From Sediminibacterium sp. (GTDB taxonomy: Bacteria > Bacteroidota > Bacteroidia > Chitinophagales > Chitinophagaceae), in contig JALRFB010000018.1 in assembly GCA_023256555.1 (NCBI GenBank), positions 1 to 10,300 on the forward strand: 10,300 nt of DNA. The letters run 5' to 3'. A program made the translations under genes and the position numbers. The notes beneath the pieces were generated by a model that worked only from the letters and a program-made list of their open reading frames with translations, was not told the DNA's origin and made no database searches. Shown piece by piece: positions 2,693-10,034 of this stretch. The number at the start of each line of letters is the position of its first letter. Position 1 is the stretch's first letter.

Positions 2693-2728
2693 AAAAAAAT
2701 AAACCCCGACAATGCTGTCGGGGTTTAT
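2693..2728 (-). terminator. trp attenuator terminator hairpin
   Basis: On the minus strand a perfect 13-bp stem (arms 2728-2716 and 2711-2699; core CCCCGACA/TGTCGGGG) closes a GCAT tetraloop and is followed directly by six T residues (2698-2693). This is a textbook intrinsic terminator, yet it lies 30 nt before the trpE start and after the Trp-rich leader peptide, so it is best read as an attenuator. Its 5' arm can also pair with 2771-2764 inside the leader gene, which would prevent the hairpin from forming. Confidence 0.93.
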
Positions 2729-2771
2729 GTATATCTTGACAATAATGGCTATGTCATTACAATACCCCAAC
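2717..2771 (-). promoter_or_regulatory. trp antiterminator (alternative pairing, regions 2:3)
   Basis: Minus-strand segment 2771-2764 (GTTGGGGT) can pair over 8 bp, with one G-U wobble, with 2724-2717 (ACCCCGAC), which is the 5' arm of the terminator. A small hairpin (2759-2755 TAATG with 2747-2743 CATTA) sits in the loop between them. Segment 2771-2764 is part of leader codons 15-17 and begins 12 nt after the last Trp codon. A ribosome stalled on Trp codons would leave it free; a ribosome reaching the stop at 2759 would cover it. The pairing is read by eye; no folding energy was calculated. Confidence 0.82.
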
Positions 2772-2813
2772 GGAGTTTGTATGCCACCACCAAAAATTGT
2801 TTATTGTTTTCAT
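2757..2813 (-). CDS. trpL: trp operon leader peptide with three consecutive Trp codons
   Basis: An 18-codon frame runs from ATG 2813 to TAA 2757-2759 and encodes MKTINNFWWWHTNSVGVL. Codons 8-10 (2792-2784) are TGG TGG TGG. Three tandem codons for the rarest amino acid in so short a frame, just before a terminator hairpin and trpE, identify it as a ribosome-stalling leader peptide analogous to enterobacterial TrpL. The peptide itself probably has no function; the act of translating it senses charged tRNA-Trp. The frame ends 28 nt before the terminator stem and overlaps the antiterminator segment. A TAAATTTG promoter box ends 7 nt upstream of its ATG, so the mRNA may have almost no 5' UTR. It is shorter than gene callers normally report. 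Confidence 0.92.
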   Translation of the reverse strand: MKTINNFWWWHTNSVGVL

Positions 2814-2820
2814 TGCAGAG

Positions 2821-2853
2821 CAAATTTACTCATTTTACCCTTTCGATACCAAA
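2821..2853 (-). promoter_or_regulatory. Candidate Bacteroidetes-type promoter of the trp operon
   Basis: On the minus strand TTTG (2853-2850) and TAAATTTG (2828-2821) are separated by 21 nt. This agrees with the Bacteroidetes sigma-ABfr consensus TTTG (-33) and TAnnTTTG (-7). The -7 box is a full match. The box ends 7 nt before the trpL ATG, placing the start of transcription at or very near the start codon. The TTTG overlaps the T tail of the candidate terminator after hisB. Confidence 0.72.
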
Positions 2854-4038: not shown

Positions 4039-4431
4039 TTATTTCTTTTTTACTTTTTGCACTTGTGCCAATGTTACTTTCGAAGCTTTATTGGACCATG
4101 AATTTCTGATATAAGAAAGTACATCAGCAATATCTTGATCTTTTAAATCTGGATTAGCAGTCATTGCATTGCTATAATAATAACCATCCAAAGCCACTCT
4201 TTCGTTATATCCCCCTCTGATAATTTTAACCATTCTAGCTATATCATTACCCACCACATTACTAGCTCCATCTAATGGTGCATTCATATTTGGAACACCA
4301 CCACCATCTGCTTGATGACAAACCAAACATCTAGTCTCATAAATTTTTTTGCCATTCGACATATTTTGTGCCGAAATTGTATTCACTACAAAAAGTCCTA
4401 AAACAAAAAAGAAAACATTGATTGATTTCAT
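4039..4431 (-). CDS. Small secreted c-type cytochrome
   Basis: The 130-residue product has a hydrophobic signal peptide (residues 1-21, likely cut after ISA before Gln22) and one haem-attachment motif CLVCH at 35-39. Met90, in the YYSNAMTANPDLKDQDIADVLSYIRNSW stretch, is the probable second axial haem ligand; the helix that follows is typical of class I cytochrome c domains paired with dehydrogenases. The tail (about 114-130) is lysine-rich. It starts 2 bp after the stop of the sorbosone-dehydrogenase-like gene, so it is most simply the electron acceptor of that enzyme in the periplasm or at the envelope. It is followed 3 bp later by hisB. The electron partner role is inferred from gene adjacency and family habit, not shown directly. 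Confidence 0.9.
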   Translation of the reverse strand: MKSINVFFFVLGLFVVNTISAQNMSNGKKIYETRCLVCHQADGGGVPNMNAPLDGASNVVGNDIARMVKIIRGGYNERVALDGYYYSNAMTANPDLKDQDIADVLSYIRNSWSNKASKVTLAQVQKVKKK

Positions 4432-4433
4432 AA

Positions 4434-5681
4434 TTATTTATTGAAACTAATTTTAAAAATAGCACCCTTGTTGTCATCACAAACATATAATGCACCATCA
4501 GGCCCTTCGGCTAAACCACAAGGTCTTGCTTTAGCCAATCTTGGATTGGTCACAATATCTGTTCCTGCAAAACCATTTGCAAAAATCTCCCAATCACCAG
4601 AAGGCTTGCCATCTTTAAAAGGCACAAATGCTACAAAGTATCCTTCTTGAGGCAATGGAGCTCTGTTCCATGAACCATGAAAAGCAATGAATGCCCCTTG
4701 TTGGTATTTTGCAGGGAACTGGGTTCCTTTATAAAACAATAAAGACATGGGTGCCATATGCGCTGGGAAAGCCACCATTGGACTTAATGCATTAGGTGCA
4801 CCTTCTTTTTTACCATCACCACCATATTCAGGAGACAATATTTTTTTCTTTTGGTAAGGATCATAATACACATAAGGCCATCCACAATCATCCCCTTCTT
4901 TTACTTCATACATGGTTTCTGCAGGCAACTCTGCGTTTTGATTATCACTATAATATTGAGGATAGAAAGAATTTAATTGATCTCTACCATGTTGTGTTAC
5001 AAATAGACTATTGGTTTTTGTATTCCAATCTAATCCAATGACGTTTCTTAAACCAGTAGCATAACGTTTGCCATCTCCATATACTTGATTTTCTTTTTGT
5101 CCATCAAATTTCCAAATACCACCTGCAGAATCTAAAATAGGACAAGGCATCATCCCTTTAGAACCGGGCATTCTGTCTTTTTCTTGACAAGCATTTGAAT
5201 AAGCGCCAATATTAACATAGATATTTCCTTGAGGATCTAAAGTGATCGATTTTGAAGAATGTTGTCTTCTATCAATCAAATCTTTCACTATGACTTTGGG
5301 TTGTGTAGGGTTCACTACTTCATCTTTTTCATTTAATTGATATAAAAATATGCCCTGATCTGAAGAAGCATATAAATTATTGTCTCTTACATAGATACCT
5401 GTTCCTCCATAATTACCCCATCCAGTAATTTTATCAGCAATACCATCTTTATTAGCATCTTCTAATCTAATGATTGCTTTTCCGTCTTTATTGGGTGCAT
5501 TCAACTTTGCGAATACCACTCCTGACTTTGTTATAGTAATATGTCTTGAACTGCCAATATTGTTAGCAAATAAAGTAGCAGAAAATCCTGCTGGCAATCT
5601 TAATCCAGCATTGTCTTGAGCTTTAGCAGTACATGCCATCATTAAGATAGACAATAAGAATAGATTTTGTAATTTTTTCAT
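4434..5681 (-). CDS. Secreted sorbosone/glucose dehydrogenase-like beta-propeller protein
   Basis: The 415-residue product resembles the L-sorbosone dehydrogenase branch of the soluble PQQ-type sugar dehydrogenases, which oxidise aldoses or aldehydes outside the cytoplasm. Supporting stretches are RLPAGFSATLFA (28-39), an EF-hand-like calcium loop DANKDGIAD (75-83), RRQHSSKSITLDPQGNIYV (138-156), TGLRNVIGLDWN (209-220), GDDCGWPY (263-270), HGSWNR (335-340) and RPCGLAEGPDGALYVCDD (386-403). The N-terminus is a signal peptide; cutting after AKA21 is one option, while MMAC17 is a poor lipoprotein box. It sits 32 bp after hisC and 2 bp before the cytochrome gene, inside the his operon. I see no clear internal promoter in the 32-bp gap. 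Substrate and true PQQ dependence cannot be told from sequence. Confidence 0.87.
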   Translation of the reverse strand: MKKLQNLFLLSILMMACTAKAQDNAGLRLPAGFSATLFANNIGSSRHITITKSGVVFAKLNAPNKDGKAIIRLEDANKDGIADKITGWGNYGGTGIYVRDNNLYASSDQGIFLYQLNEKDEVVNPTQPKVIVKDLIDRRQHSSKSITLDPQGNIYVNIGAYSNACQEKDRMPGSKGMMPCPILDSAGGIWKFDGQKENQVYGDGKRYATGLRNVIGLDWNTKTNSLFVTQHGRDQLNSFYPQYYSDNQNAELPAETMYEVKEGDDCGWPYVYYDPYQKKKILSPEYGGDGKKEGAPNALSPMVAFPAHMAPMSLLFYKGTQFPAKYQQGAFIAFHGSWNRAPLPQEGYFVAFVPFKDGKPSGDWEIFANGFAGTDIVTNPRLAKARPCGLAEGPDGALYVCDDNKGAIFKISFNK

Positions 5682-8080: not shown

Positions 8081-8935
8081 TTATAAAATCATTTTTTCGA
8101 TTGGAACCACTAAAATCCCCTCTGCGCCAGCACCTTTCAATTGTTCAATAATATCCCAGAAATCACTTTCCGCAATTACACTATGCACACTACTCCATCC
8201 TGGAGAAGCCAAAGGCAAAACAGTAGGGCTTTTCATGCCTGGAAGTAATGAAATAATCTTTTCTAATTGATCATTTGGCGCATTTAATAAAACGTATTTA
8301 TTCTTTTTGGCTTTTTTTACAGATTCTATTCTGAATAACAAACGCTCTAAAATTGATTGTGCTTCTGTGCCAAAATCTTTTCGCTTAATTAGTACTGCTT
8401 GTGATGCTAAAATGGTTTCTGCTTCTTTTAATCCATTCATAAATAAAGTAGATCCGCTACTCACTAAATCACAAACCACATCTGCCAATCCAATACCAGG
8501 AGCTATCTCAACACTTCCACTAATTTCATGTATTTCTGCCTTCACTTTATTTTTATTCAAATACTCCTGCACTAATACCGGATAGCTCGTGGCAATTCTT
8601 TTACCTGCTAAAAATTGTGGGCCAGAAAAATTTTCTTCTTTTCGAACAGCAAAACTTAACCTGCATTTGCCAAAACCTAATGCATAAGCCACATCTACTT
8701 TCTTATTTTTCTCATACACCACATTTTCACCAACAAATCCGATATCTGCTACACCATCTTCTACATATTGGGGAATATCGTCGTCTCTAAGAAAGAATAA
8801 TTCGATAGGAAAATTTGCAGCCTCTGCCTTTAATTTATTGACACCATTGCTTATATCAATGCCACACTCTTTTAATAGTTTCATAGAGTCGTCGTGCAAT
8901 CTCCCTGATTTTTGAATGGCCAATTTTAATTTCAT
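8081..8935 (-). CDS. hisG: ATP phosphoribosyltransferase, long form
   Basis: HisG couples ATP with PRPP, the first committed step of histidine synthesis. At 284 residues it is the long (HisG-L) form, with a C-terminal ACT-like regulatory domain (about 210-284, including LLPGMKSPTVLPLASPGWSSVHSVI) through which histidine inhibits the known enzymes. The catalytic part shows MKLKLAIQKSGRL at the N-terminus, DIGFVGENVVYE at 64-75 and the PRPP-binding stretch EISGSVEIAPGIGLADVVCD at 137-156, followed by LVSSGSTL. The long form does not need HisZ. It is the first structural gene of the operon; its ATG lies 12 nt after the T-rich tail of the his attenuator hairpin. Control is therefore likely dual: attenuation of transcription and feedback inhibition by histidine. 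Confidence 0.97.
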   Translation of the reverse strand: MKLKLAIQKSGRLHDDSMKLLKECGIDISNGVNKLKAEAANFPIELFFLRDDDIPQYVEDGVADIGFVGENVVYEKNKKVDVAYALGFGKCRLSFAVRKEENFSGPQFLAGKRIATSYPVLVQEYLNKNKVKAEIHEISGSVEIAPGIGLADVVCDLVSSGSTLFMNGLKEAETILASQAVLIKRKDFGTEAQSILERLLFRIESVKKAKKNKYVLLNAPNDQLEKIISLLPGMKSPTVLPLASPGWSSVHSVIAESDFWDIIEQLKGAGAEGILVVPIEKMIL

Positions 8936-8947
8936 TTTGGTTATTTT

Positions 8948-8984
8948 AAAAATTAAAAGGGCTTACTATGTTAGTAAGCCCTTT
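8948..8984 (-). terminator. his attenuator terminator hairpin
   Basis: On the minus strand a perfect 13-bp stem (arms 8984-8972 and 8968-8956; AAAGGGCTTACTA with its complement) closes an ACA triloop. The tail is T-rich but interrupted (T AA TTTTT, 8955-8948). It lies between the His-rich leader peptide and hisG, so it is read as an attenuator rather than the end of an upstream gene. Its 5' arm can alternatively pair with 9024-9017. The broken T tract suggests termination may be less complete than at the trp hairpin. Confidence 0.92.
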
Positions 8985-9024
8985 GGTTGAATATAGTAAT
9001 TACATACCTACACCCCAGCTTACC
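8973..9024 (-). promoter_or_regulatory. his antiterminator (alternative pairing, regions 2:3)
   Basis: Minus-strand segment 9024-9017 (GGTAAGCT) can pair over 8 bp, with G-U wobbles at each end, with 8980-8973 (GGCTTACT), part of the terminator's 5' arm. The segment overlaps the leader stop codon (9022-9020) and begins 13 nt after the last His codon. A ribosome stalled at His codons leaves it free, while one reaching the stop hides it. A small competing hairpin (9033-9029 TATCC with 9025-9021 GGGTA) could act as the 1:2 pairing. This was found by eye without energy calculation. Confidence 0.8.
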
Positions 9025-9070
9025 CCTTGGATAGCAAATGATGGTGATGGATATGTTTGTTTAATGTCAT
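9020..9070 (-). CDS. hisL: his operon leader peptide with five His codons
   Basis: A 16-codon frame from ATG 9070 to TAA 9022-9020 encodes MTLNKHIHHHHLLSKG. His codons occur at positions 6 and 8-11 (9055-9053 and 9049-9038). Such density directly before a terminator hairpin and hisG marks a ribosome-stalling leader peptide, the counterpart of enterobacterial HisL, though that one carries seven consecutive His codons. Translation would sense the level of charged tRNA-His. A TAAATTTG promoter box ends only 4 nt upstream of the ATG, so the transcript may begin at or close to the start codon. The frame is too short for routine gene prediction. Confidence 0.92.
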   Translation of the reverse strand: MTLNKHIHHHHLLSKG

Positions 9071-9074
9071 GCTG

Positions 9075-9109
9075 CAAATTTACACTGGTTTTATAAAATA
9101 AGCAACAAA
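9075..9109 (-). promoter_or_regulatory. Candidate Bacteroidetes-type promoter of the his operon
   Basis: The minus strand has TAAATTTG at 9082-9075, a full match to TAnnTTTG and identical to the box before trpL. Upstream are TTG at 9105-9103 (20-nt spacer) and TTTG at 9109-9106 (23-nt spacer); the first spacing is closer to the usual one. The box ends 4 nt before the hisL ATG. This places transcription start at about the A of the ATG if the usual box-to-start distance applies. Confidence 0.7.
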
Positions 9110-9176: not shown

Positions 9177-10034
9177 ATGCGATTGCTACCATTTACCCTA
9201 GTTATTGGAATATTGTCTTTGAGTTTTTGTGCTCAAAAAGAAGCACCTACACCAACCCCACCTGTAGTTACCACCCCCACTACACCGACCACACCTCCAA
9301 CTACCACAACTGATACTACTAAGAAATTAGTTTGGTCAGATGAATTTGGAACAGATGGTGCTCCAGATGCAAATAAATGGGCATATGATATTGGCACTGG
9401 CACCAATGGCTGGGGTAATAATGAAGCAGAATATTATACCAGTGATTTAACCAATGCAAGAGTAGAAAATGGAAAATTGGTCATTGAAGCAAGAAAAGAA
9501 AATAAAGGTGGCAAATTTTACACTTCCGCTAGAATGTTAACGCAAGGTAAAGCAACATGGACTTATGGAAGAATTGAAGTAAGAGCAAAAATTCCTAAGG
9601 GTGTGGGTACTTGGCCTGCCATTTGGATGTTAGGAGATAATATTAAAACTGTTGGTTGGCCTGCTTGCGGAGAAATAGATATAATGGAGCATGTTGGCAA
9701 AGATTTAGATAAAATGTTTTGGTCTGCACATTCTAAAAAACTGAACTGGACATTGGGTACTCAACAAACATATACCACCTATATCAATGGTATAACCAAT
9801 GATTTTCATGTATTTAAATTAGACTGGACTAAAGAAAGTTTAAAATATTATGTAGATGATGTTTTATACTACACGGCAGTGAATGATGGAAGAGGCACAG
9901 ATTATTATCCATTTGTGGATCCGCAATTCTTAATTTTGAACTTAGCTATTGGTGGCAATTTAGCAGGTAATACAATTGATGATACTATCTTTCCCGTAAG
10001 AATGGAAGTGGATTATGTTAGAATATATCAATAA
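9177..10034 (+). CDS. Secreted glycoside hydrolase family 16 beta-glucanase (laminarinase-like)
   Basis: The 285-residue protein has a signal sequence (1-17), a Cys18 within LSFCAQ, a Pro/Thr-rich linker (about 23-48) and a GH16 catalytic domain to the C-terminus. The active-site signature is GEIDIMEHVG at 165-174: Glu166 as nucleophile, Asp168 and Glu171 as acid/base. This is the laminarinase-type E-x-D-x-x-E form with the extra residue. Other family stretches are LVWSDEFGTDGAPDANKW (51-68), GWGNNEAEYYT (78-88), YGRIEVRAKIPKGVGTWPAIWML (130-152) and MEVDYVRIYQ at the end. It probably cleaves beta-1,3- or mixed beta-1,3/1,4-glucans at the cell surface. Phe before Cys18 is unusual for a lipoprotein box, so anchoring is uncertain. 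It is transcribed away from hisL; I found no convincing TAnnTTTG box in 9083-9176. Confidence 0.92.
   Translation: MRLLPFTLVIGILSLSFCAQKEAPTPTPPVVTTPTTPTTPPTTTTDTTKKLVWSDEFGTDGAPDANKWAYDIGTGTNGWGNNEAEYYTSDLTNARVENGKLVIEARKENKGGKFYTSARMLTQGKATWTYGRIEVRAKIPKGVGTWPAIWMLGDNIKTVGWPACGEIDIMEHVGKDLDKMFWSAHSKKLNWTLGTQQTYTTYINGITNDFHVFKLDWTKESLKYYVDDVLYYTAVNDGRGTDYYPFVDPQFLILNLAIGGNLAGNTIDDTIFPVRMEVDYVRIYQ

Follow-up and report, generated by a model that had tools for sequence, protein, structure and literature searches.

A histidine-rich leader ahead of hisG in Sediminibacterium and its relatives is very probably a ribosome-operated attenuator

Results

The his–trp locus and its two leaders

The window, by which we mean the whole 10,300-nt stretch of DNA analysed here, comes from an incomplete Sediminibacterium sp. 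genome (1.33 Mb, 58.4% complete). Its minus strand carries, in order, hisG, hisD, hisC, a glucose/sorbosone-dehydrogenase-like gene, a cytochrome c gene, hisB, trpE, trpG and a partial trpD-like frame that was named from its sequence and the gene order. Between positions 8935 and 2 of this strand the his genes continue directly into trp genes, each part with a leader of its own. By hand count, hisG and trpE lie on the same strand within ~10 kb in 22 genomes of the family; gene order was checked in five. The dehydrogenase-like and cytochrome c genes (4039–5681, minus strand) separate hisC from hisB, and this redox-gene insertion is present in four of the five relatives checked and absent in L342 (labels beginning with L and f are our handles for loci and families).

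Ahead of trpE the window holds a second attenuator-like leader (2699–2828, minus strand), which encodes MKTINNFWWWHTNSVGVL at 2813–2757. It has a -7 box, TAAATTTG, at 2828–2821, 15 nt before the ATG, and a 13-bp terminator at 2728–2699, and a WWW leader precedes trpE in all 30 of the 30 family loci examined. Weak Rfam matches at 2680–2856 (rnk_pseudo, MicC, rimP, BSnc120, STnc180 and Trp_leader) fall on or beside this trp leader and were rejected, all being below gathering scores.

The leader ahead of hisG, the subject of this report, is made up of the following parts.

8081–8935, minus strand: hisG, first gene of the controlled operon (TIGR00070, 6.4e-57; PF01634)
8948–8955, minus strand: interrupted T tract TAATTTTT, from the sequence
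8956–8984, minus strand: intrinsic terminator of 13 bp with loop ACA (regions 3 and 4), from a terminator scan
8973–8980, minus strand: antiterminator partner GGCTTACT within the 5' arm of the terminator (region 3), from sequence and folding
9002–9016, minus strand: G-rich stretch predicted by folding to pair with the His run when the ribosome is absent
9017–9024, minus strand: antiterminator strand GGTAAGCT, which contains the leader stop codon (region 2), from sequence, spacing and conservation
9020–9070, minus strand: leader ORF encoding MTLNKHIHHHHLLSKG, 16 codons, ATG at 9070–9068 and TAA at 9022–9020
9038–9055, minus strand: His codon run CAT ATC CAT CAC CAT CAT (region 1), from the sequence
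9075–9082, minus strand: -7 promoter box TAAATTTG (consensus in Bacteroidota TAnnTTTG), beginning 12 nt ahead of the leader ATG, from the sequence
9177–10034, plus strand: glycoside hydrolase 16 gene upstream of the leader, from a domain scan

Read from 9070 to 9020, the leader codons are ATG ACA TTA AAC AAA CAT ATC CAT CAC CAT CAT TTG CTA TCC AAG GGG TAA. Five of them specify histidine (9055–9053, 9049–9047, 9046–9044, 9043–9041 and 9040–9038), with one Ile codon after the first; across the leaders of the family, CAT is used 669 times and CAC 113 times. The terminator stem, AAAGGGCTTACTA with TAGTAAGCCCTTT, forms 13 perfect pairs around the loop ACA, and the T tract that follows it (TTTTAATTTTTAA) is interrupted. 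The alternative structure joins 9024–9017 (GGTAAGCT) to 8980–8973 (GGCTTACT) by eight pairs, two of them G-U, across the leader stop codon. A preliminary description of this DNA had drawn attention to a 16-codon frame with five His codons broken by Ile, a 13-bp hairpin before hisG, an 8-bp alternative pairing overlapping the leader stop and a broken T tract. All four are borne out: the frame is exact in the sequence, the hairpin is located at 8984–8956 on the minus strand and is perfect, the alternative pairing is exact with two of its eight pairs G-U, and the T tract reads TAATTTTT, an interruption that is common among the closest relatives listed. The -7 box at 9082–9075 and the pairing between the His run and ~9016–9002 go beyond the parts listed there.

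Two exclusive structures and a predicted third

The segment from 9072 to 8940 folds better than 200 of 200 dinucleotide shuffles (z -4.17). Which structure prevails in the modelled folds depends on the ribosome and on how much of the RNA has been made. When a ribosome is stalled in the His run and the 5' arm of the terminator has only just been transcribed, the 8-bp antiterminator forms (-14.8 kcal/mol), whereas a ribosome at the stop codon leaves the terminator to fold. Once the 3' arm is present, the terminator prevails in the fold despite a stalled ribosome, and the switch must therefore be kinetic, decided during transcription, as it is in classic attenuators. In the ribosome-free fold of the window, the His run is paired with ~9016–9002, the antiterminator strand is tied up inside this protector hairpin and the terminator is formed.

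The protector hairpin is the part of this scheme that we predict with less certainty than the others. Pairing of the His run with downstream sequence was found in 144 of 168 relatives and in 229 of 504 controls in which that sequence was shuffled, and the frequency of comparable pairing in the controls makes the support for a hairpin favouring termination without translation moderate. The same controls lend weight to a two-state attenuator, in which the pairing of the His run with 9016–9002 is not real and an untranslated leader reads through. We consider this version unlikely, since the real leaders not only have the pairing more often but in this comparison fold ~4.5 kcal/mol better than the shuffled ones on average, and since the no-ribosome fold of the window keeps the protector hairpin with or without the 3' arm.

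Conservation within the family

To follow the leader through the family we assembled 110 hisG loci, duplicates included (the window plus 80 and 29 from two listings), whose hisG is 74–100% identical to that of the window. One record among our loci, L003, is titled Comamonas sp.; its hisG is 88% identical to the window's and it has the same leader, and the title probably reflects a mislabelled bin. A short His-rich ORF lies within ~300 nt upstream of hisG in 109 of the 110 loci, window included, the sole miss being L044, with 145 nt of upstream DNA. These 109 loci give 100 distinct leader-to-hisG sequences, and in 97 of them the antiterminator strand overlaps the leader stop. The three exceptions are L069, where the stop falls just before the strand, L106, where a longer leader has four pairs at the stop, and L108, where the strand lies some nucleotides ahead of a later stop. 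Conservation of the His codons and of the alternative pairing had been set beforehand, in the preliminary description, as a test that could refute it; both are kept in relatives, and at a fixed spacing. Together with the shuffled folds, this recurrence at hisG loci confirms the original observation far beyond chance.

This spacing runs from the last clustered His codon (its first base) to the start of the antiterminator strand and measures 16 nt in 105 of 168 distinct leaders and 17 nt in a further 20. A bacterial ribosome covers ~12 nt beyond the codon being read (PMC4833913), so that at this distance the strand would be free when a ribosome stalls at the last His codon and covered when it reaches the stop.

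With the register anchored on the stop codon, 1199 of 1339 cells (89.5%) are standard pairs; sliding the strand by 1–3 nt lowers this to 24–47%. All eight antiterminator pairs form in 103 of 168 family loci, and in a control that shuffled the leader side the median real score was reached in 2.15% of shuffles. When the strand is permuted among family members, pairing still stands at 88.8% (sd 0.26%), and among 500 permutations the highest value matches the observed 89.5%; this indicates that within the family the antiterminator is conserved more than it covaries. L108 and L141, which pair GGTGAGCC with GGTTCGCC, have both sides changed, but inside the family we claim conservation, the signal of covariation there being weak. 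The terminator exceeds the 98% level of shuffles after the leader in 72 of 73 surveyed family loci.

A predicted start at the leader ATG

In Flavobacterium psychrophilum the -7 box TAnnTTTG occupies positions -12 to -5 relative to the transcription start (PMC9723704). In the window TAAATTTG begins exactly 12 nt before the leader ATG, and we thus predict that transcription of the his leader starts at, or near, its own ATG, the position of the box pointing to the A. Of 168 distinct family leaders, 144 have such a box between -30 and -8 relative to the leader start, 62 of them exactly at -12; from upstream background 0.0085 per locus would be expected. The predicted 5' UTR is 0–6 nt in 118 of the 168 and 10–16 nt in 25; one has its box at -9, and 24 have no exact box in that range. 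Among these 24 are one-base variants (L010, L026, L031) and loci in which the start chosen by the script lies upstream of the box (e.g. L054, L062). The arrangement is not general across the phylum, as family f5 has the box at -26/-27 in at least three loci and at -15 in at least one, among the loci listed.

Leaderless mRNAs are rare in the phylum, at 5.5% in F. psychrophilum (PMC9723704), and ~3.7% of 5' UTRs in Bacteroides thetaiotaomicron are shorter than 10 nt (PMC7366714). There is precedent for an attenuator RNA of this kind in Sinorhizobium meliloti trpL, which begins at the ATG of its leader ORF (PMC7298713). That case concerns tryptophan in an alphaproteobacterium and was shown experimentally, whereas the start of the his leader here is predicted.

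Reach across Bacteroidota

Beyond the family we surveyed 166 Bacteroidota loci, each with at least 100 nt upstream of hisG. They comprise sets of 27, 74 (hand-picked from the hisG listing) and 66 (hand-picked for family spread), less L183, which has 2 nt upstream; a group of weak-match hisG genes (E ~1e-23 to 1e-33; for example in families f12, f13, f17, f20 and f28) was left out. Counting any start codon, a His-rich leader is present at 145 of the 166 loci, 73 of 79 in the window's family and 72 of 87 elsewhere, and in 19 of 26 families. One of the six window-family loci that lack it, L166, has 123 nt upstream. Restricting the search to ATG ORFs of 6–45 aa with at least three His in five residues gave 133 of 166 loci on the hisG strand and two on the complementary strand, and the next commonest residue by this criterion on the hisG strand, Leu, gave 46 of 166. 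Some single His ORFs in GC-rich loci (e.g. L131, L226, L234, L254) may be due to chance.

Outside the family the pairing strands differ in sequence, for example TCAAGCG:CGTTTGA in f5 and GCCGG:CCGGC in f16, and taken singly 15 of the 45 non-family loci with a terminator reach p<0.05 for the pairing. Across 13 families, leaders score 8.63 against their own terminator arm and 6.74 (sd 0.45) against exchanged arms, a difference that none of 2000 permutations reaches; in f29 (two loci) the own arm does no better than exchanged ones. The alternative pairing noted at the outset therefore covaries between families, where we claim covariation, and hardly at all inside the window's family.

These comparisons bear on two further explanations. 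The His run might belong to a conserved small protein with a function of its own, such as metal binding, while the hairpin would act in attenuation or RNA stability without any link to translation of the ORF. The peptides are indeed strongly His-rich and conserved, but outside the His run their sequences differ widely from family to family, and the stop lies inside the antiterminator strand at a fixed spacing from the last His codon, features that matter only if a ribosome on the leader ORF acts in cis; we regard this explanation as very improbable. A chance arrangement of a short ORF and an ordinary terminator with no regulatory link, conceivable in AT-rich DNA where short ORFs and hairpins are common (the window has 11 terminator-like sites against 5.4 expected), is refuted by the conservation and spacing (leader at 109 of 110 loci, stop overlap in 97 of 100, 133 loci against two by strand, fixed spacing and 0 of 2000 permutations) and retains a negligible likelihood.

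Lineages in which the scan found few or no terminators

Our terminator finder allowed loops of 3–9 nt and misses longer ones (L127 and L128 have hairpins by eye), so that terminator counts outside the family are lower bounds. As such, a terminator after the leader was found in 0 of 9 loci in f23, 0 of 4 in f3, 0 of 2 in f21, 0 of 2 in f9 and 3 of 7 in f8. At L244–L247 in f3 and at L116, L118, L121 and L215 in f8, the scan placed no terminator between the His leader and hisG; each of the four f8 peptides ends in HHFHHSS.

Family f23 was looked at in 30 loci, which include genomes already in the 166-locus survey. A His leader is present in 25, and 21 of the 25 have 8–11 His. Spacers of 82–104 nt, with 6–12% G and 20–33% C, separate leader and hisG in 21 of the 25, and 20 of those 21 spacers fold no better than -6.3 kcal/mol. 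In the four exceptions (L308, L314, L325 and L335) the spacer is longer or more structured, and L308, whose hisG is far closer to the window's, has a terminator-like hairpin by eye. The start is GTG in 15 of the 25, as chosen by the script, and TAnnTTTG stands at -12 in eight and at -13 in three. Within f23 (L311–L337), the His region of some leaders (e.g. L326, L332) can by eye form a hairpin of the GATGTCC/GGACATC type. G-poor, C-containing spacers resemble Rho loading regions. With no terminator and a nearly unstructured spacer, f23 could use Rho-dependent or translational control.

Discussion

Our analysis defines, ahead of hisG, a His-rich leader and two mutually exclusive structures, together with their conservation, their spacing and their covariation between families. 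Three features of the mechanistic class are found here by sequence and fold evidence: a leader with His codons before a his operon, a terminator before hisG and a suitably placed, exclusive antiterminator. The leader is very probably a ribosome-operated switch that lets transcription go on only at histidine shortage, and we are highly confident that the element is a ribosome-mediated transcription attenuator of the his operon that works like that of E. coli without matching the Rfam His_leader model.

From this arrangement we infer the start site, leader translation, stalling, termination and read-through. Transcription would begin at or beside the leader ATG, given the -7 box, and a ribosome would translate the 16-codon leader behind RNA polymerase. 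If charged His-tRNA is ample, the ribosome would reach the stop and cover 9024–9017, the terminator at 8984–8956 would fold and the transcript would end before hisG. If His-tRNA is uncharged, the ribosome would stall in the His run with its leading edge just before 9024, leaving 9024–9017 to pair with 8980–8973; with the antiterminator formed, the terminator would come too late and hisG would be transcribed. With no ribosome, the His codons would pair with ~9016–9002 and 9026–9017 would be tied up inside the hairpin, a sequestration that would make termination the default. Upstream, the glycoside hydrolase 16 gene (9177–10034) lies on the plus strand, so that there is no preceding minus-strand gene for which the hairpin could serve as terminator.

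The results further raise the possibility, which we put forward tentatively, that His-sensing leaders are widespread in Bacteroidota and that their sensor is kept while the actuator is lineage-specific. The sensor would be a short His ORF, often starting at or next to the transcription start and needing no Shine-Dalgarno sequence. The actuator would in many lineages be a terminator and antiterminator at the end of the ORF, with family-specific sequences, and in at least one family (f23) would do without a terminator.

How does this leader relate to known systems? The preliminary description had likened it to the his attenuator of Salmonella and E. coli. The likeness holds for the logic and does not extend to a match with Rfam His_leader (the hisL attenuator, presumably accession RF00514), which is absent from the 12 matches to E 10 in the window and has no match to E 0.1 in eight relatives. 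Bacteroid-trp, a leader-peptide attenuator, likewise had no match to E 10 in the window, trp leader included, or to E 0.1 in the eight relatives. Control by some other trans-acting means (a metabolite riboswitch, a T-box or an RNA-binding protein) that uses the hairpin and leaves the His ORF secondary found no point in its favour, no T-box or riboswitch being among the 12 window matches to E 10 or in the eight relatives to E 0.1, and we give it next to no credence.

Our preferred reading, a ribosome-mediated attenuator, shares with hisL of E. coli and Salmonella a short leader with a run of His codons, a terminator before hisG and an exclusive antiterminator (PMC9413887). It differs in that the antiterminator strand contains the leader stop and the start is predicted at the leader ATG. 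Firmicutes his attenuators, described from comparative genomics in another phylum, have 3–5 consecutive His codons with a terminator and antiterminator (PMC9413887). Within Bacteroidetes, Bacteroid-trp (Rfam RF01692; PMC2864571) is likewise a cis-regulatory RNA of an amino-acid operon, for a different amino acid. Closest by phylum and gene is the hisG element of F. psychrophilum and other Flavobacteriaceae, which is structured, conserved in Flavobacteriaceae and without an Rfam match; in the available text of that report it is described without a His leader, peptide, antiterminator or distribution, and strong clues for leader-peptide attenuation before amino-acid operons are given separately from it (PMC9723704). 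A structured hisG leader in Flavobacteriaceae is thus already in print (PMC9723704), and what seems most worth testing here is the predicted leaderless start and the differing actuators. We found no report of a his leader peptide in Chitinophagaceae in the open-licence literature; older subscription work, including that of Lopatovskaya and co-authors (2010), may have predicted cases in Bacteroidetes.

Leader-peptide control is textbook knowledge in Proteobacteria, and Bacteroidota is a phylum with few descriptions of leader-peptide switches. Flavobacteria have no Shine-Dalgarno sequences (PMC9723704), which makes timely loading of a ribosome onto the leader a real question. Placing the leader start codon at the 5' end of the RNA would be a simple answer to it, and the distance from the last His codon to the antiterminator, which matches one ribosome edge and is 16–17 nt in 125 of 168 leaders, would serve as a natural ruler.
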